Shown: positions 436 through 61,638 of the stretch, in pieces
Layout: each line of letters opens with the position of its first letter
Position numbering within the stretch: position 1 is the stretch's first letter
From: Acytostelium subglobosum LB1
Taxonomy: Eukaryota > Evosea > Eumycetozoa > Acytosteliales > Acytosteliaceae
Direction of reading: 5' to 3'
NCBI RefSeq assembly: GCF_000787575.1
Contig: NW_012236507.1
Location: 130,253-194,252, forward strand
Length of the DNA stretch: 64,000 bases
Program-made: the position numbers and the translations under genes
The notes under the pieces: model-generated
Told to the model about the DNA's origin: nothing
Seen by the model: only the letters and a program-made list of their open reading frames with translations
Databases searched by the model: none

Positions 436-2800
436 TCATGAGATGGCCTGGCCAGAGTGATCAGGAGACTGATGGATCGGGTCCAATACATACACATCCA
501 TGTTACCCTTGCCCTTGATGTCCATACAGTACTTCTGGAATGAGCTCTTTCTCTTCAACAATGAGAAGGTTGACTCGCTTACGCATATCTTATTGGGGAA
601 GCCAGAACTTTCCATTCGACCTAAGTAATGATTGATAGAGTTAGTGATTGAATGATTGAGTGGACTACCAATCCTATACTTACTGGCAATATTAACGGCA
701 TCTCCCCATATATCGAATGAATATCTCTTCTTACCAATGATGCCTGCTATAGCATCACCAGTGTGGATACCGATTCGAAGATGTAGATCGTATCCATATT
801 TTTGATTAAAGTATTCCACCATCTCCAACAGTTTGGATGCAAATATAACAGCCTTGTTGGCGTGGAATATTGTACGCTGGTTTTCATCGTTCTCGTCCAT
901 GTCCTCCAGCAAGTCTGGAGACACAAACTTATAATCTACACAATGCCATTTAAGGCCGCTAACAATCATATCTAGTGGATTGATGTTGTTGTTTGTTAGT
1001 TAGTTGTGGATTCGATCCAAGTTGGTCGATTGATCTAACATACATGAATCACCTATTGTCTTGATCTTTTCCAGGTTCATCGATTCTGATAGATCATCAA
1101 ACAGTGAGTATAGTCTATTCAACATGGTTACCAATTCCTTTGGAGTGAACTTTGGTGCCATTTGAGTAAAGTCTACAATGTCCGCGAATATAATTGTAAT
1201 GCCAGGACATTCCTCTGCAATATGTATATCACCTTGTTTCATTCTTGATATGATTGCTAGTATATAATTGGATTAAGTATTAGTGATTGATCAATAGGTT
1301 GATTGATTGAATGGGCTTACCAGATGGGAAGATTGAGTTGATCAAAGAGTCTGACTTCATCTTCTCTTTGGTCAATGCTGATGATAACTTTAACAACTTG
1401 TCTTTAACTCTTTGGTGAGCAATCGATGTGACTCCAATTAGCAAGAAACATAATATCAAGCTGAACATTGATATACCCTGTGATTGACCAACAAATAAAA
1501 GAATGGGGATTAGTATTGGTATAAGTATTTCAATGGACAATGTAACACTTACAAATGCAATGAATAGATTACTGTTGCTTTTGTCGTAACCCATGTCCAT
1601 GTAATGATATGTTACTGCAAACATTCCAGTGTAATGTAGAAGACATACGGCCATCGCCATGACCAGTGATGCCATGAGGTGCTGAACGTGGTTACTGGAT
1701 GTTCCAAACAGTGATATGTACAGTGACAATGCAGACGCGATCCATGCGAATATGAAAGACAACACGATCATACCCATGTTGTAATGTGCCACAGCATTCA
1801 TACGCATGGCAGACATGCCAGAGTAATGCATTGAGAAGATACCAATGGCCATGAAGAGTGCGCCGAATGTTAGACGAAGTACCAAGTTCCTATCGAATGC
1901 TCTATATGTTGCCCATTGTTGGTGTGGCTTTGGTATCAGCATAGTCTCCATCTCATCCCTGAACAAATCTATCGCAAAACTGTCTTCAATTAATGACTCT
2001 ACATCAAGTGAAACAGTTTGTGAGTGAGTGCCGTCATCGTTTGATCCTGTGTCGGTTGTGTCGCGAAGTGGATTGAGATCGGACAGCTCTCTTTGGCGCT
2101 CACGTTCGCGGTCCGACTGAAGGAAGCGCATGGTGACCTCTTGTTCGGTGGAGAAGGGGTCGGGTGGGAGTGAGTTGGTGGACGTGTTGAGCTCGTGAGG
2201 CGACATGAAGTTGGACATGCTGATGCAATCTGGTGAGACCAGTGATGGTTGTTGTATCTCGGACGATGATGAATTCTTTAGTGATGAAGTCGGTGCCATA
2301 TCCAATGGCTGTTGGAAATATATCAATGGTTTGCCAATACGAAGTGTGTTTGTAATGAATGCCGGCAAGTTATTGGTCAGCATCACTAATCCAAGACGTG
2401 CAGCAACAATAGCCGCCAATCCAGACAATACAGTAATAGTTATATCATAACTGATTGGAATAGGGAATCCACATGCCATCATTCCAATAAAGTGCATACT
2501 CCTAAATGTTGGTGTTAGTCACTGATTGATTGATTGAATGATTGAATGATTGAATGATTGAATGATTGAGGGAATGAGTGGAACATACCAAATTGCACAA
2601 CCACCTAATGTTATTGATGCCAGAGCAAGATAGAGTTCTTTCATCATCCAGCCACGGGCAGTTGGATATTGATCCAACACTTGGAAGTAGGTATAGGAGC
2701 CCATTACACTGACCAAGTAAGAGGCCAAGATTAGGCCCCACGACCAAGTGGCTTCAATGAGCGTGCCAGGCTCAATGTCGGTCGTGTACTCTTGGCTCAT
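436..2800 (-). CDS. MHYT-domain adenylyl cyclase (7-TM sensor fused to class III cyclase)
   Basis: Five exons on the minus strand: 2800-2589, 2501-1321, 1256-1044, 971-684 and 620-436, all introns GT-AG, giving 692 aa. Residues 1-~450 form a membrane domain with three MHYT motifs (SMHFIGM, rebuilt exactly across intron 1; SMHYSGM near 294; LHYTGM near 359), the mark of the MHYT sensor family known mainly from bacteria, where copper-mediated sensing of O2, CO or NO was proposed. A Ser/charged insert of ~160 residues lies between motifs 1 and 2. After a short linker (FPSAIISRMKQG) comes one class III cyclase domain with both metal Asp residues (FADIVDFT; TIGDSYM), adenine-selecting Lys (KIKTIGD) and Asp (FDIWGD), and transition-state Asn and Arg (NIASRM). 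The site looks complete and predicts ATP as substrate, acting as a homodimer. I know of no D. discoideum cyclase with this architecture. Confidence 0.87.
621..683 (-). other. 63-nt stop-free intron inside the cyclase catalytic core
   Basis: Donor GTAAGT and acceptor TTAG flank 63 nt, exactly 21 codons without a stop in the cyclase frame. Splicing joins NIAS to RMES, the canonical class III sequence, so the intron is real. Retention would keep the frame but insert 21 residues between the transition-state Asn and Arg. Confidence 0.8.
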
Positions 2801-8745: not shown

Positions 8746-9563
8746 TTAGAGTGGTTTGAGGAGTTCACCAGGTGATCCAATTCCAGGGAAGAAGTTGGTG
8801 GACTTGGAGAGTGTCCCAGTTAGGAATAGGAGAATACAAACTCCTAGATCATGACAACTGGACATAATATAAGCCAACTCTGACATTTGATGGTATAGGT
8901 CTTCTCCGAAATCGTCAAATTGCATCGCTAGTACCAATGGACTCTCATGAGTAAAGTTGAACTTTCTTTGAATCAAAGACATCACTTTTCTAATGTGGAA
9001 TGAATCAAGGTCGACTCCAACATGGCCAGGTGTATAGAGAAAGGGAAAGGCAACATTTGGCGGTTGACGAAAGAAGAAATGGGAGGCTATGTACAGACCC
9101 AGGTTGATTGCCATGTGGTAGTTATTACCATCACACATTGGATCACTTGTTGAAAGATTGAAGTGTATACTTGCAAAGTGAGGTGACCAGTTGAGTGATC
9201 TAATTCTTTCGCACAACTCGAGTCCTATCCTTGACTTGCCAATCCCCAATTGACCATGTATTACTGGACAGTTATAGAGTGTGTAATCTCTTTGGCAAAC
9301 TTCAAAGTTGTTAAAGTTATATTCAGCATACTTTACCAAAGAGTCTAGAGTGTCTTGTCTTCCAAAGAATGGAAATTTTGTATCAATGTTTACAGAATCC
9401 CTCTGCTCCAGTACACATTTGTATTGAGGGTTGTTGAAGTATATTTGTTTAATCAACTCCTCAACTAATGTTTGAGAATGTAAGTAAGCATGTATGTATT
9501 GAGGAGATTGAGATACATACGAGATTGGCCACCTCCTTGAGAGATATTGGTAGTGGTAGACAT
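8746..9563 (-). CDS. compact P-loop NTPase, STAND/CRN-like family
   Basis: Two exons (9563-9521 and 9464-8746) join in frame to 253 aa beginning MSTTTNISQGGGQS; the donor is GTATGT and the acceptor CATTAG. The start was chosen because the open frame further upstream reads like spacer. Visible motifs are a FFGR box (near residue 43), a Walker A (HGQLGIGKSRIGLEL), a Walker B-like strand (LVLAMQFDDF) and a sensor-like LFLTGTLSKS near the end. This order resembles the P-loop ATPases fused to effector-like regions that are numerous in dictyostelids, oomycetes and chytrids. Homologues I can recall are longer, so this copy may be truncated or decayed. Function unknown; nucleotide-driven switching is inferred from family only. 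Confidence 0.55.
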
Positions 9564-9837
9564 TCGTATAGTAGTTGTTGTTGAAGTAGTTTGGTAGAGA
9601 TAATAAGAAAGTTGAGTGAATGAAAGAATAAATGAGTAGCTGGAAATAAAGATAACAGATTGCAAGAGTGAGGAGTGAGTTGACAAGTGAATCCCACACT
9701 ACCAACCAATCAATAAACATGTTACCAACCCTACAGACTAAGGTGAATGATGGATCTAATCTAATAACAAAACGAGAGTAGGGTGTTTATTAACATGGTG
9801 ATAATAATAATAATAATAGGACGTGACGAGGGAGTGA

Positions 9838-44557: not shown

Positions 44558-46247
44558 ATGCCAGTTGAAATAACAACAAAGACATCATCACAGCCACAAC
44601 CATCACTCCTCAATCTGTACAGATTGTGGCAGAGTATTTGGTTGTCTAGGCCAGATGTCATAACAAACTACACCTACACCAACTCACAAACAAAGAATGA
44701 TAATATAATGAGTGTGGAGGAGTTGTCCAAACAGCTCAGACAAGATACCCCACATAATCTACAGATGCTTGATCATAAACATTGGGAGAATGTTGTTGAC
44801 TCACTTTGTCATCACCTTCAAACTGGTCAACTGTCTATAGGCCCATCCGCTCCAACTTGCCCCGACACTGATCTTGTAGGTCCATACAATCCCCGCACTG
44901 GCAAGTGCACGTGCAAGTGGGACTCCATCCCCAACGACCCCAGTATCTCGGATATTCAGGTCCACTCAGGATGCACTGCCATCAAGAAAGTTCTCGACTC
45001 ACTCGAGTCGGTGGCCTCAAGAGATAATGAATGGCTAACAGACATCTTCACAGTTGACGACCTTCGTGTGGCCGTTGATGAGGTGTTACTCTCCAATACA
45101 GACATCCAGCCAGCACCCACTACATGCCAGGGTGCCATCACCAACACTGTCGCTCTACCAATCGAGGCCCCCAATTGCAAATGTTGACCCACAGAACGAC
45201 ACCAACATATCAATTTACAATGAGTTGTACCCTACAGCCGAACAGATCAAGATGTTTGCCGATGCCAAGTACTTCCATTCCATCGCTTGTTGTGCAAGTC
45301 AGTGTGATGATGGCCTTGCACGGGCAATTGCCTACTGTGGCAATGACATTCTGATGGCTGACTACTGTGAGGCCGCCGACGACAAGACCCTGGCACTCTG
45401 CCAGAGATTGAGTGGCGCCTCAATGGCCTTCCTCAAACTTTGCAACCTAGCTGGTATCGTCTCGGACTGGCAACTGGGCAACATGGCTGCTGGTATAGTC
45501 CTCTTCCGTGTACTTGGATAATACCGCGATCACTCACGCTCCACAATGCCAGAGGGAATATATGGCAGCCGAATGACAGGAATCACCGTCCAGAGATACG
45601 TTGATATTGGAATATTCAATGGTGTAATCTCAGCCTCACTATCATCCGGTGGAGAGCAGATCACCCGTGATCAGTTCCGTGCGCTGTCCGAGTCGACGAC
45701 TTTGATCAACGACCTGATCGACCTACGCAGTGACACCATGCGCAAGACCCGTGAGAACCCAGTACTACGTGGCGCGCGCGGCAATCTCTGCACCTACCTT
45801 GACAACATGATCAGTCGTAGTGTCCTTGTCGTTGCCAAGACCATTGCCGACAGTCGAGTTTGTGCACTGGTGATCATGGCACATTGCAACTGGGTCCTGA
45901 TGGCCTCGCACCACAAGTTGCATGAGTTGGCCATGCAGACCAAGGAGGTTACACTCTACCCCACATGCACATACAAGTCACTGGTCAATCATAATGAGTA
46001 CGAGCAGTTGCTGGTGGCCCTGAAGCCTTATGGTACTCTTGGCAAGAAGGTCGGCCCATGTCTGACCAAGACTCGTAAGGAGTTGGACATGCTCTACCAC
46101 ACTCAAAGAACTGATCCAAAGACCCATATGGCTTGGATAGCAGATGCAACAAGAATAATTCTCGACCCAATCAATATGAGAAAGTGGATTGATGTGGTTC
46201 ATTACAAGTGGGAGGGTAACACTGGAGATGTTGACTATTGTCCGTAA
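44558..46247 (+). pseudogene. isoprenoid/terpenoid-synthase-like gene with broken frame
   Basis: Three protein-like segments follow one another: 44558-45187 (209 aa), a segment from ~45170 to the TAA at 45519-45521, and 45522-46247 in the same frame as the second. The first and second differ by +1 at the C5 run 45168-45172; with four C they would read LPIEAPIANVDPQNDTNIS. The TAA falls between VLFRVLG and YRDHSRSTMPEGIY. Uninterrupted length would be ~563 aa. The last segment (YGSRMTGITVQRYVDIGIFN; TTLINDLIDLRSDTMRKTRE) has the helix pattern and NDxxD-type motif of terpenoid-synthase-fold proteins, including dictyostelid and fungal ones; the usual Asp-rich DDxxD motif is not obvious. No GT-AG introns explain either break. 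Family call tentative. Confidence 0.45.
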
Positions 46248-51058: not shown

Positions 51059-51966
51059 ATGCCACTTCCATTGACCATCAGAAAGAGCCTCAGAGGTAAG
51101 TTTTGGAATAATAATCCAACAATGACATGTCCAACCTTACTGATCAATCAAATATAATATTAGACAATGAGGAGCACTTGACCCAAGCCGTCGAGAACTT
51201 GAAGGCCACCACAGGACAGGACTGGACCTTTGAGTTTGACTTTGAGACCATCTACGAGAAGTTGGCCAAGGACTGCGACTACCCAAGAAACAACGCCGGT
51301 GACTTCTTCTACAAGACCATCGCCCTCAACGTTGCCGACTGCATCAAGTCGACCTGTGCCAAGGACGAGATTGCCAAGGAGGCTCTGATTGAGGCCAACT
51401 CCAACAACAAGGTCATCGTCCGTGTCAACGAGGAGAAGAAGAACGTGCCATACTGGAAGTACATCTTTGAGAACAACTCCCTCGTCCTGTTGTTCAACCC
51501 AAGCGTTGCCAACACTAGCGACATCTCCTACTTTGACCTTGCCGCCATCATCCCATCCCCAGGCGTCATGTCATTGAAGGCTCGCATGGACATTCGTGAG
51601 AACACCGAGGCCATCAACGAGGAGTTGGAGAAGATCAAGGCCGTCACCAAGCGTGACTGGACCTACGACGAGGCTTCCCTCGAGCAGTGCTACGCCACCT
51701 TTGGCGACTACCAGGAGCGCATTGGTTCCATCCTCAAGGACATCATTACCAACGTCTCCTACAACATTTGCAACCGTTGCAAGGACGAGATGATCCTCGA
51801 GGCCTTTGACGAGGTCACCCAGAACTCCAAGATCGTTCTCCGTGTCGTTCCAAAGCAGAGCGAGTACTGGGTCTGGTCTTTCGAGTCTGGCAACGTCGTC
51901 GTCTCCTTCAAGTCCATCTGCAACGTCGGTGACATCAGCTACTTGGACTTTGAGAAGTTGTTGTAA
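51059..51966 (+). CDS. unrecognised cytosolic-type protein made of two tandem ~125-aa repeats
   Basis: Two exons (51059-51095 encoding MPLPLTIRKSLR; 51164-51966), 279 aa. A rival unspliced start at ATG 51127 (MSNLTDQSNIILDNEEH) is also in frame and gives the same length, so the 5' end is uncertain. The body is an internal duplication: ATTGQDWTFEFDFETIYEKL with AVTKRDWTYDEASLEQCYAT; NVADCIKSTCAKDEIAKEAL with NVSYNICNRCKDEMILEAFD; NKVIVRVNEEKKNVPYWKYI with SKIVLRVVPKQSEYWVWSFE; SDISYFDLAAI with GDISYLDFEKL. Each unit has an alpha-rich half, a CxxxCxKDE-like motif and a beta-rich half. No signal peptide or membrane helix. Codon use is strongly C-ending, so expression is probably high. Family not recognised. 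Confidence 0.75.
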
Positions 51967-54361: not shown

Positions 54362-55589
54362 TGAATGACTTGGCTTTGCTTGGCATGGAATGGCATAGCT
54401 TGGCATTCATTCAAACTTATACATTATTGTTATTACTATTCACATTGATTGGATATCATCCAATCTCAACCTGCACCCTGCAAGGGTACACTCCCTTTGT
54501 CAACAACAAACAATGTCATTCATTCATTCATTTATCTCATTCGCTCAATCAATCATCAACCAACAACAAAATTATCAACATCAAGGAAGCCAACAAGATG
54601 GACCAATCACCTAACTTGAACAAACAAGTAGCATCCTTCAAGATAGTGATGTTCACGCGACTTGGGCCTTGGCACAGTGACTTGGTTCACGTGCGACCCC
54701 ATTTGCCTCTCTACTCGGCTCAATCAACGTGCTTGGCCCTCAGGAGGATAATAATATTATCCTGAACAGGTGATTGGGCGATGTATACTCCCCATCACAC
54801 CTGGATCAGGAACAGGCCAAGCAGGAGCAAACGAACGAAGGAAAGAGTAGCTCCCAGGAGGGAGGTGGAACTATATGGTTGACCCCAGAGTCCACTCGTA
54901 TCACTCATACTTCCCTCGGCTTCCGCAAAGGATCTAGGAATGTTCTCGCCCTCACCCACAAACAGTAACACACTTCATCCTTGGTTGCAAAGTAGGTAGT
55001 CGCCACAACTTCCTCATAAGGTATTTGTCATCAACAACAACAACAAAACGATGGAACGACGAACGAATGTATGAATGAATCAATAAATCTGAAATGATTC
55101 AATCAATCAATCAGTGCACTGAAGGCTGATCGTTAAGGCCACAAACCAATTGGTGATGCTCCAAGAGTCGCAGCGCACGACGAGCTGATGGGATAATCAT
55201 ACCAACAACGATCAGGGCACTCGGACAGACGATCACATGACATCGAATTGATTGAATGAAGGGTGGTGGGAGTACCATCTCAAAATTTGAGTTTTGGCAA
55301 TGACAGGCCATCATTGATTGGATGGAGGGCCAACTTGAGCTGAGGACAATGGACGAAGAGTGTGATGCAGGGGGTTAGTCCGAAGTGAGGACCAACCTGA
55401 ACTAGATATTTACAGATGGCCCAATCCCAATCATCGAATTAACTTGTTGTGGTTGTGAAGGTTGGGGGAGAGACACTAACTAATGAATTGAATTGAATGA
55501 ATGAATGAATGTGAAATACCCGTTGACCGCCAATCAGTTATCTAATATCAACTCTTAATATATACTATTACACATACATATAATAACTA
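54362..55589. other. 1.2-kb spacer
   Basis: No supported gene. AGGATAATA-A-TATTATCCT (54745-54763) is a 9-bp-arm inverted repeat. Duplicated GGCATGGAATGGCAT-like units lie near 54375-54405. AATGAATGAATG repeats and an AT-rich promoter precede the next gene (55490-55585). Confidence 0.45.
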
Positions 55590-57087
55590 ATGTACAATTA
55601 TAAGTTTGTTGTTGCCACTACATTGGTGGCAATGATTGCGATGATGAGCATTGCTTCAGTCAGTGGTGGTGCTGCTGGCCCAGCCCCAAGCGCACTTGAG
55701 GACTTTATCTACGCCCCCGACTCGGGCTACTCATACTCCCTCCATCACTCTGTTCAAGGCAACGGCTACACACAATACACGCTGAACCTGACCTCGGGCA
55801 ACTGGCTCGATGCCAACCGCACCAGCAACCCAGTCTGGTGGCACTTGCTCCAGGTCTGCATCCCAGACTACCCACTCGCCACCAACACTGCCTTCCTCTG
55901 GAATGAGGGCGGCTACTTCACCACATCGACAAACGTGTCGCTCAGCCCACTCATCGCCAGCATGTGCGCCAACTCCAATACTGTGGTCGCGTCGCTGCTG
56001 CAGAACCCCAACCAGTACATTGTGTTCAATAACAATGGCACACCAAAGAACGTGAGCGAGGACGGTATCCTGGCCTACTCGTGGCGCCAGTTCATCGCCA
56101 ACAACACCGATCCATCGCAGCTCGCCAACTTCCCAATGGCTCGCGCCGTCGTCCGTGCTATGGACGCCGTGCAGTCGTTCGTCGCTCAGCGCTCATACTA
56201 CATCCGCGTCAAGAACTTTGTCATCTCGGGTGCCAGCAAGCGTGGATGGGCCGCCTGGCTCGCCGCCGCCGTCGACGACCGTGTCAAGGCCGTCATCCCC
56301 GTCGTCATGCCAATCGGTGCGCTCGAGCAGCAGATGAACAACCACTTCCGCGCCTACGGTGGGTTTCTCCTACGCCTTTGGCAACTACTACTCCGAGGGC
56401 CTCATGGTCAACGTCAACCAGCCCGGCTTCTCCTACCTGGCCAAGCAGCTCGACCCATTGATGTACGTGTCCGGCCTCACCATGCCCAAGTACATCGTCA
56501 CCGCCGTCTCGGACCAGTTCTTCATCCCCGACTCTAGCGTTTACTTCTTCAACGGTCTGCTCGGCGCCAAGCACCAGCGCATCCTCCCCAACGAGGACCA
56601 CTCTCTGAGCCACAACTTCCCCCAGGTCATCGCCGACATCACCACATACTACAACATGATCGTCTTCAACCAGAAGCTTCCCCAGTTCCAGTGGTCCGTC
56701 GTGCCCGACCCCTCGACCAACACCACATCAGTCACAGTTGTGATTGGCGGTCAGGGATTCCAGGCCCAGCCACTCAACGTCGTGCTGTGGACCGGTAACT
56801 CGGTGACCACATCGATCAAGCGCGACTGGCGTCTGATTGCCGGCCCTGGCAACGTCCGCCAGAACATCACGTTCACCCCAGCCACCCTCGAGCCTGTCTC
56901 TGCCGGTCTCTATCAAGCCACCATTACCGCACCACCCACCGGATACATTGGAGGCTTTGTCGAGCTTACCTTCTTCTCATTCTATGGCGAGCAAAAGTAC
57001 ACCACCGAGTTCTTCTGGGCTCCCTACACCTTCCCATTCAAGTCATGCGTTGGTGTCGCCTGTACCCAGGTTCCATTCCCTCAATAA
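55590..57087 (+). CDS. aprA: AprA / PhoPQ-activated pathogenicity-related family secreted protein, with one +1 frameshift
   Basis: A signal peptide (MYNYKFVVATTLVAMIAMMS) is followed by an alpha/beta-hydrolase-like domain of the PhoPQ_related family. D. discoideum AprA, the autocrine proliferation repressor, is the known member. Catalytic-type motifs are visible: FVISGASKRGWAAWLAAAVD (nucleophile Ser), VTAVSDQFFIPDSS (Asp) and PNEDHSLSHNFP (His). The C-terminal beta-rich part ends QVPFPQ. The first 55590-56360 is one frame and 56359-57087 the +1 frame. They meet at GGTGGG (56358-56363), where one G fewer gives YGGFSYAFGNYY, ~499 aa. No intron fits. The rest shows no decay and codon use is strongly C-ending, so a sequence error is the simpler explanation. 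Many N-glycosylation sites. Confidence 0.85.
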
Positions 57088-59494: not shown

Positions 59495-61257
59495 TTACAT
59501 CGATTCGACAAGGGCACGGATGTTGTTAAGGTGATCCTGGACCTGCTGGATCTCCTGGAGCAAGGCAGCTTTGGTTGGGTTGGTGGTGGAGCCAGTGGTA
59601 GTGGCGCCAGTTGTGGTTGTCGCTCCAGTGGTGGTAGTGGCAGGGGCAGTTGTTGTTGCCGTTGTGGCGCCAGTGGTGGTAGTAGTAGCAGGGGCAGTGG
59701 TAGTAGTGGTAGTGGCAGGGGCAGTTGTGGTAGTTGTTTGGGTACCGGTTGTCGGGGTATTTCCATTGCAAGTGGCTTGCACACCGTTTGGTCTGTAAGC
59801 AACCCACATGTTGTTAGAGAAGTCTGAGACGTATCCACCAGTGTTGGCAGCGGTGCCATGGAACTGAGGGAATCTTCCACCTCCTGGTGCAGCAACAGTG
59901 TGTTGGATAGTCCAATGGTCAGGTTGAGACCAGTATCCAAAGTTTACCCAACGATCAACATAGTCCATGAACAATGGAGCTGAGTTTGTGTTAGTTAGTG
60001 ATTCATTCTATAAATCAATATCTTTCCAAAAGTGAACATACAGTTAAAGATACATTGGAGTTGTGGAGCCAATCTGATGGAGAGGGCTGTTGCCTTCCAG
60101 GCCATTGATGTGCAACATTGTTGGTAATTGTTGGAGATCCAACCTCCATCAATCCACCCATCTGGATCACGGCAAACATAGTTTGATTCATCGACTGATC
60201 CAGTCTTCCAGTAGTCTCCATCTTCACAAAGTTGACCCCAGAGTGCTCTCTTGGCATTTGTTCCATAGAATATTTGACCATCCTCTTGGAATGTGTTGTA
60301 AGGTGCTAATCTAACTAGATCGGCCATCTTTGTATCACCAAGCAAGGCTGCGGCGAATACAATTGGAAGCTTACGACCAGAGAAGATACCACCGTTGGCA
60401 CCCCATGTCACACCATTGTCCAACATACCTGCAAAGTCTATTCCTGCTTGGATGTAGGCGATCAAAAGGGGCATCTTTGATGCCAAGGGATCATTGAGCA
60501 TCAGACGAAGGACTGCGTCTCCACTGTCACTCGCAAACTGTGCACCATAGAATGCCATGTTGTTCAGTGGATGGAGATGGGAGACTGGCCAATCAGCCAG
60601 ATAGTCGATCTGGACACGCTGGAATTTGAGCAACATTTCACTTAGTGATGGAGTTCCGGTGACTGGCGCAAGACTCTGGAGCAATCCAGTGTTCAAGTTG
60701 TTGGTTGATTGGAACTTCTTCTTAGACCAAGCACCAAAGTATGCAGGACGGAATGAGTTGGCGGGTGGAGGGGAGGCTAGCACGGTTAGGACACCAGCAG
60801 TTTGCAATGCTCCATAATGTTGCTGACCACGGTTTGGTCCAAGCAATGAGATACACTTGACAATTGAAGTGTTTGGTGCGGCAAGGTAGGGAAGGGCAGG
60901 GACGAGTGCTGGGCTGAACGAGTAGCTAAGTGATCCGAATTGATCAGCACTGTTGGTGCCATTGTCAAGACCTTGCTGGGTGAATGAGATGGGGTTGGCC
61001 TGCCATCCATTGGTACCATTAGATGCGATGTAAGGTGGATTGATCTGAGTTATCTTGACCTTTCCGCCAGAGGTAGTGGTCGGAGTTACCCAGAAGTCAC
61101 CATTTGCAAAAGTACCACAAGGGTAGGCTCGATCAAAAGTGTATGTTATTCCCCATTGGGAGATTGAGCTGGCAGAGCCACTAGAGCACTGTGCCGATGC
61201 CAAGTGCATTTGAGCAGCACATATTGATAGTGCTACCAATGTAAAGAGTATCTTCAT
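59495..61257 (-). CDS. large secreted protein with Thr-rich stalk, family not recognised
   Basis: Two exons (61257-60042, 59979-59495) give 566 aa. A signal peptide (MKILFTLVALSICAAQMHLA) is followed by ~400 residues of mostly helical-looking sequence with motifs such as WGITYTFDRAYPCGTFANGD, NGWQANPISFTQQGLDNGTN, GVTWGANGGIFSGRKLPIVF and CRDPDGWIDGGWISNNYQQC. The order of helices and GD/NG loops recalls an alpha/alpha-toroid glycosidase or lyase, but I cannot name a family. Exon 2 adds a compact segment with many aromatics, a mucin-like stalk of ~65 Thr/Ala (TTTTTAPATTTT, GATT repeats) and a short helix (AALLQEIQQVQDHLNNIRAL). Probably an extracellular matrix or carbohydrate-active protein. 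Intron sites are standard. Confidence 0.7.
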
Positions 61258-61638
61258 TCTTTGTATAATTGATTGATTGGTTGTTCAAAGTCGAATGAAG
61301 TGAACTTGTAATGTTAGGACTCCAAAAGGGATGACCCGTCGCCTCCATGTTGGGTTTGAGGAGAGAGTGTCGGTGGGTCGGTTGTCCCACCAAGACTGTC
61401 TACCAATCATCCGGCTGACGCGAATAGTAGTAGATATTTAAGAGAATTCAAGTTGATCTTTATTATTATAATAATAACCTTCAAAGACTCCTGTTTGACC
61501 AAACACGCGACCAAAACGAAACGACGTGGTATGGTCAACGAGGCGTCGTTTGATTAAAATATCTTGGTGTCCAAATATGGGTTCTGATGGAAAGATCTTG
61601 AAAGTGAACTGGGTGGGTGACTGATTGATTGAACGAGA
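61258..61638. other. spacer
   Basis: 380 bp between the fimbrin stop and the start of the secreted-protein gene. AT-rich in the middle (61455-61475). The short minus-strand open frame here looks spurious. Confidence 0.45.

Follow-up and report, generated by a model that had tools for sequence, protein, structure and literature searches.

On balance, we favour the reading that a single gene encodes a membrane adenylyl cyclase equipped with a seven-helix MHYT sensor, through which a gas or copper ligand at the outer face of the cell would govern the production of cAMP. The gene lies within the 64,000-nucleotide stretch of DNA that was analysed as a whole (the window), and its complete coding region occupies 436..2800 on the minus strand, reading from 2800 to 436 as the sequence-only reading had placed it. 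The start ATG at 2800 abuts an upstream in-frame stop, the coding sequence ends at 436, and a splice model with six exons gives a single reading frame over 667 codons, as befits an intact intron-containing gene. The 667-aa product was recognised by Pfam in both of its halves. Three repeats of MHYT (PF03707) together scored 102.4 bits (E 1.3e-29; cut-off 21), and the profile for class III cyclases, Guanylate_cyc (PF00211), scored 173.3 bits (E 5.1e-51; cut-off 21.9).

Exon 1 (2589..2800, on the minus strand like every feature of the gene given here) encodes the N terminus, the first transmembrane helix (TM1), and TM2 as far as Trp71. Exon 2 (1553..2501) carries MHYT motifs 1-3, TM3-TM6, a cytoplasmic insert and the start of TM7, while exon 3 (1321..1477) encodes most of TM7 and continues through the linker helix into the cyclase transducer element, as far as SIFPS. 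The remaining transducer element is encoded by exon 4 (1044..1256), along with the metal residues Asp465 and Asp509 and the adenine-type Lys505; exon 5 (684..971) provides the middle of the cyclase with Asp597 and Asn604, and exon 6 (436..620) Arg608 and the C terminus. The five predicted introns are all GT-AG, 63-87 nt in length and have a GC content of 0.30-0.38. Four of them are required, because the frame and the domain matches are otherwise lost: intron 1 (2502..2588; 87 nt, GT-AG, phase 2), intron 3 (1257..1320; 64 nt), intron 4 (972..1043; 72 nt) and intron 5 (621..683; 63 nt). The remaining one, intron 2 (1478..1552; 75 nt, GTAAGT...CACAG), is newly recognised, in frame and stop-free, and its addition at 1552-1478 corrects the earlier count of four introns to five. 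Intron 1 contains a tandem repeat at 2523-2569, with 5.9 copies of TGATTGAA and 97% matches, and AATC/ATTC stretches resembling this repeat were also seen in the 64-nt and 63-nt introns.

The segment 1552-1478 looks like an in-frame intron whose retention would add an eighth membrane helix. A scan of the exons for hidden introns gave several candidates, of which this was the most conspicuous (75 nt, GC 0.32, GTAAGT/CACAG). For comparison, we chose 15 of the 24 other long ORFs listed for the window and trimmed their ends; across the 17,406 nt of these ORFs, no GTAWGT..YAG stretch of 55-95 nt was found. The synonymous-codon score of 1552-1478 was equalled or undercut by 7 of 5,427 segments from the 15 ORFs and by 10 of 668 segments from the gene itself, the segments in these counts, and in those for GC, being overlapping. 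GC content was a weaker discriminator, since values as low were seen in 81 of the 5,427 segments of the other ORFs and in 29 of the 668 segments of the gene. The four-intron product of 692 aa also matched the Pfam MHYT (1.1e-29) and class III cyclase (5.6e-51) domains, and contained eight hydrophobic segments, seven with a Kyte-Doolittle mean above 1.5 and a weaker TM1 at 1.37, which exceeds the number in bacterial MHYT domains by one. Once 1552-1478 is excised, LFIAF runs straight into GISMFSLILCFLLIGV, the two making up one seventh helix in a protein of 667 residues, whereas eight helices combined with an outside N terminus would mean that the cyclase ended up outside the cell.

Profile scores had little to say on this point. 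The Pfam MHYT profile does not separate the two models (102.5 bits for the four-intron and 102.4 bits for the five-intron product), and a bacterial MHYT profile gave 148.2 bits with five introns and 146.9 bits with four, a slight gain of 1.3 bits. In the AF2 prediction of exon 2 with the intron retained, the extra segment was helical, with a pLDDT of ~63-79; the conserved helices mostly reached 90-97. This prediction is compatible with either reading, and structure prediction alone would leave eight helices possible. What decided against the four-intron model was the number of helices, the codon usage of the segment, and its intron-like composition and splice signals, the profile scores being nearly neutral.

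Going by the domains recognised, what is new is the combination of two known modules, an MHYT sensor and a class III adenylyl cyclase. MHYT domains had been described at the outset as known mainly from bacterial signalling proteins; MHYT is also found in fungal histidine kinases (PMC4007546). The outputs of MHYT proteins listed in the available part of one account are histidine kinase, GGDEF, EAL, PAS and DNA-binding domains, with class III adenylyl cyclase not listed there (PMC11347149). In six sets of bacterial genomes, MHYT was found in 25/244, 5/195, 21/247, 140/299, 6/201 and 21/296 genomes, centre genomes included. At most 30 loci, some of them overlapping, were examined per genome set, which covered a minority of the hits in the 140/299 set, and the sampling included the best 80 of at least 538 confirmed stretches. 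This provided 228 MHYT ORFs (209 distinct, with 186 distinct MHYT segments) from 226 of 241 loci. A class III cyclase in the same ORF as MHYT was present in none of the 228, and all three cyclase loci used as positive controls (L210-L212) were detected. A bacterial fusion as the direct source of the gene was thus considered and not found among the 228 MHYT ORFs examined. Plasmid matches to the 692-residue query numbered 289, and the 40 listed all lie from residue 412 onwards, on the cyclase side; no plasmid record showed 80% cover, an unfair test given that some 25% of this query consists of the insert and the retained intron. There was no pattern match to exon 2 in viral contigs.

An MHYT-class III cyclase fusion was not found among the matches listed in a search of the running text of papers, and within the same scope the text that pairs MHYT with Dictyostelium concerns bacteria only. 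The word MHYT is absent from the genome papers of Acytostelium subglobosum and Acrasis kona. Nucleotidyl cyclases number 5 in D. discoideum, 64 in Physarum and 67 in Acanthamoeba (PMC4758236), and the available part of the text reports no MHYT fusion among the five counted in D. discoideum. An already described cyclase of the same architecture, a case that the sequence-only reading had itself raised, therefore finds no support in the literature text searched. It is possible, although we doubt it, that the fusion has an ancient origin, occurs in many protists and has simply gone unnamed in print, which would make this gene a routine family member. The fungal MHYT histidine kinases lend some colour to this suggestion, as they place MHYT in other eukaryotes, but the amoebozoan cyclase papers do not name MHYT in those portions of their running text that were available.

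We then consider the combination as a new one and turn to its sensor half. All three MHYT motifs reported earlier are present, but they read MHFI, MHYS and LHYT, with Leu in place of Met in the third. Motif 1 (SMHFIGM; 2480..2500, residues 72-78, with His74) is immediately preceded by Trp71, the codon of which is split by intron 1 and restored on splicing. Motif 2 (SMHYSGM; 1814..1834, residues 294-300, with His296) and motif 3 (LLHYTGM; 1622..1642, residues 358-364, with His360, and Leu359 for Met) lie within exon 2. We compared these motifs with 163 distinct bacterial MHYT domains, drawn from 202 MHYT ORFs, 196 of which were within the limits set for length and E value. In 163/163 domains, His stands at the positions of His74, His296 and His360 and Met at that of Met78, and the frequency of Met among these domains at the positions of Met73, Met295, Met300 and Met364 is 161, 162, 160 and 159 of 163, respectively. 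The aromatic residues Phe75, Tyr297 and Tyr361 are the commonest ones at their positions (147, 161 and 158 of 163). Of the Met, His and aromatic positions of the motifs, Leu359 alone departs from the residue prevailing in the bacterial domains (Met in 151/163 and Leu in 7/163), and its presence means that one possible metal ligand is missing. His is therefore kept in all three motifs, the first Met in two of the three and the second Met in each, and the candidate metal-binding histidines singled out earlier all appear to be conserved, at positions that are invariant in the bacterial set.

Overall identity to the bacterial MHYT domains is low (median 0.29, best 0.34), and alignment with seven plasmid-encoded bacterial MHYT proteins gave 24-33% identity across the domain. 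In a tree built with the 163 bacterial domains, the support for the placement of this MHYT domain was 0.09, and its terminal branch was 1.87, compared with a median of 0.38. The NCBIfam model T2SS_HK fell below its cut-off on the MHYT part (78.8 bits against 450) and was not used.

With the fifth intron spliced, seven membrane helices are indicated by hydropathy, partly by charges, and by the model of a bacterial homologue, and as read from the sequence the motifs sit in helices 2, 4 and 6, near the same end. For L010, a bacterial relative found in Pseudoxanthomonas, AF2 predicted seven long helices and one four-residue helix (mean pLDDT 95.8), with the motif histidines 60, 123 and 185 (A4 numbering) close to the termini of helices 2, 4 and 6. 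When a bacterial MHYT model was used in a fold search of the PDB with Foldseek, 389 matches were obtained at E <= 10 and none, to rhodopsins or otherwise, at E <= 0.001; by this test, the modelled MHYT fold does not look like that of a GPCR or rhodopsin. An N-out/C-in topology with seven helices and a cytoplasmic C terminus fits the distribution of charges in part. Residues 406-440, which follow TM7, are basic (7 K/R, 3 D/E), and residues 1-18 are without K/R. Counter to this, the TM3-TM4 insert, which is expected to lie inside, has 13 K/R and 25 D/E, and the TM5-TM6 loop is uncharged, which limits what the charges can say about topology. The insert (1928..2365, approximately residues 117-262) comprises ~150 residues, mostly of low AF2 confidence, with one helix above a pLDDT of 80 (residues 188-212, 83-84) and weaker helices in addition. 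It has no counterpart in the seven bacterial MHYT proteins aligned and may bring other control to the enzyme.

In the mechanism that we favour, the His, Met and Tyr residues of the motifs would bind copper at the outer face, and a small ligand (O2, NO, CO, or copper itself) would bind to or leave this copper site. The change in ligand would shift TM7 and the linker, turning the cyclase up or down; the enzyme would be a dimer, with ATP converted to cAMP at two active sites formed between its chains. In an amoeba, a gas or metal signal from outside could in this way pass straight into cAMP/PKA. We infer gas/copper sensing, and the relay of the change from the copper site to the cyclase dimer by way of TM7 and the linker, by analogy with two systems. 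CoxC, a bacterial MHYT protein, shows copper-dependent CO sensing, and O2 competes with or displaces CO (PMC11347149), while the CqsS-Rv1625c chimera is a precedent for a class III cyclase under the control of a membrane sensor foreign to it (PMC12414865).

An adenylyl cyclase whose MHYT domain has lost gas/copper sensing, and now acts as an anchor or dimeriser or responds to a lipid, quinone or partner, with control exerted via the insert, seems to us unlikely. The predicted helix within a large insert that is absent from the bacterial proteins, and the Met-to-Leu change in motif 3, would be in keeping with such a protein, and the receptor role of cyclase membrane domains is still debated (PMC12414865). 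However, despite the low identity of the domain, each motif has kept its His and its second Met, and since such retention would otherwise be unexpected, the conserved site argues against lost use.

In the proposed gas- or copper-responsive enzyme, the output half follows a basic linker of ~30 residues that joins TM7 to the transducer element, which is followed in turn by the class III catalytic domain (PF00211; 484..1212, residues 455-652, with introns inside). D465 and D509 align with their equivalents in the first cyclase domains of AC9 and AC5, and K505, D597, N604 and R608 with their equivalents in the C-terminal cyclase domains of the same enzymes. Following adenylyl cyclase structures, we take D465/D509 to be the metal residues, K505/D597 the adenine residues and N604/R608 the transition-state residues; the alignment thus confirms both metal Asp, the adenine-type Lys and Asp and the transition-state Asn and Arg named in the sequence-only reading. 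The full set of metal, base and transition-state residues is present on one chain, as it is in homodimeric class IIIa enzymes, and judging from these residues the cyclase is expected to act on ATP, as a homodimer. In the PDB, this half was most closely related to the membrane adenylyl cyclases 9, 5 and 8, followed by single-domain enzymes, for example 5o5k, and adenylyl cyclases ranked ahead of guanylyl cyclases. A match to the Pfam HNOBA tail on residues 409-445 was below the cut-off (12.4 bits against 23.4; E 0.11) and gives a hint that the linker resembles guanylyl cyclase linkers. Other sub-threshold Pfam matches, to Cation_ATPase_C (17.5 bits against 27.3) and Jagunal (10.8 against 25.4), were not used.

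Production of cGMP in place of cAMP is very improbable. Receptor guanylyl cyclases are also close to this half of the protein (ANP receptor, E 4.7e-35), but Lys505 and Asp597 are the residues of AC9 and AC5 at the aligned positions, and guanylyl cyclases have Glu and Cys at these adenine positions. A guanylyl cyclase identity was rejected on Lys505 and Asp597, which point to the adenylyl-type specificity expected from the first reading.

The fusion of an MHYT sensor to an adenylyl cyclase is confirmed by Pfam matches far above chance and by the exon 1477-1321 that the two halves share. Because this uninterrupted exon encodes most of TM7 as well as the linker and the transducer start, two separate genes are very unlikely, and the possibility raised earlier, that the halves belong to separate transcripts, is judged unlikely as well. 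Beyond intron 3, the transducer motif resumes in exon 4, which also encodes the catalytic Asp residues. That the splice model has joined two genes, or describes a decayed gene, is highly improbable: the introns were inferred from sequence alone, but TM7, the linker and the transducer start fall in a single exon, the frame is intact across all codons, and the introns are alike in their borders, length and GC content.

Other genes of the window encode SPT16, a HECT ligase, GAA1, UDP-glucose pyrophosphorylase, and STI1-type TPR, calponin-homology and PhoPQ-related proteins. Genes such as SPT16, GAA1, UDP-glucose pyrophosphorylase and the STI1-type and calponin-homology genes indicate a eukaryotic nuclear genome and support the eukaryotic host that had been assumed. 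Poly-N/Q/T tracts in some ORFs of the window, together with short AT-rich introns, suit a dictyostelid. The GC content of the window is ~0.44, and that of four dictyostelid transcriptomes lies below this, at 28.1-35.7% (PMC5282741). The host is thus probably a dictyostelid, conceivably an Acytostelium, although in all likelihood not one of these four species. Rfam at gathering thresholds gave no match in the window, and a tRNA scan set for the bacterial code found nothing. The PhoPQ-related protein (PF10142) at 55587-57087 (+) is represented by two overlapping ORFs that cover profile positions 1-228 and 223-367, and the pair is probably one gene with an intron. At 51115-51966 (+), a 283-residue ORF has two apparent diverged repeats (DWT..., ...DISY...D) and no Pfam match at E <= 0.001. 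The 429-aa ORF at 59995-61284 (-) looks secreted, with a signal-like N terminus by eye, and has no Pfam match above cut-off; a 346-aa ORF at 8746-9786 (-), without a Pfam match, contains a P-loop-like GQLGIGKSRIG by eye. The ORF at 45522-46247 (+), of 241 aa and without any Pfam match, contains NDLIDLRSDTMRKTRE, a sequence reminiscent of the NSE motif with which terpene synthases bind metal. Terpene synthases have been reported in dictyostelids (PMC6156593).

In dictyostelids, cAMP governs encystation and the formation of spores and stalk (PMC5055082; PMC8067170). One oxygen-sensing system is well documented in Dictyostelium, the prolyl hydroxylase PhyA, which acts in terminal development, and the same account describes the mechanism of aerotaxis as not identified, with mitochondria, NO and oxidative stress excluded (PMC10307954). 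We suggest, tentatively and with some doubt, that a social amoeba possesses a one-protein gas/copper-to-cAMP switch, by which O2, NO or CO would feed into the encystation and fruiting pathway, and which might represent the type of oxygen sensor used in aerotaxis. If true, a direct gas-to-cAMP enzyme would be a testable candidate type for the amoebal aerotaxis sensor, and, with sensor and cAMP read-out on one polypeptide, it would also be a convenient system in which to test MHYT chemistry. Its use for the aerotaxis question would first need an MHYT-adenylyl cyclase gene in a tractable species.

Several known systems share one or other half of this protein. Rhodopsin-guanylyl cyclase fusions, which occur in fungi, likewise join a polytopic sensor to a single class III cyclase, and their cyclase half is related to the one described here (6aoa, E 2.8e-29); they differ in having cGMP as output, and the MHYT model had no rhodopsin match at E <= 0.001. 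Enzymes of the mycobacterial Cya/Rv1625c type (5o5k and 7yzi, presumably both mycobacterial class IIIa adenylyl cyclases) share the transducer element and the complete homodimeric catalytic site, and have a six-helix membrane domain without MHYT motifs. AcaA, AcgA and AcrA are dictyostelid enzymes that make cAMP, as the present cyclase would. By their descriptions in the part of the text available, they are set apart in that none is reported with MHYT, AcgA having an extracellular osmosensor and AcrA containing two response-regulator domains (PMC5055082). CoxC and CoxH of Afipia carboxidovorans (MHYT-LytTR) share the MHYT sensor but are bacterial and have a DNA-binding output, CoxC being compared by description (PMC11347149). 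The bacterial MHYT-GGDEF/EAL proteins MucR, NbdA and DgcW, and the MHYT histidine kinases, have the same N-terminal MHYT domain, with three His motifs and an output placed behind TM7 (PMC11347149); compared with these, again by description, the protein reported here has a class III adenylyl cyclase as its output, an insert between TM3 and TM4, and a gene with eukaryotic introns.
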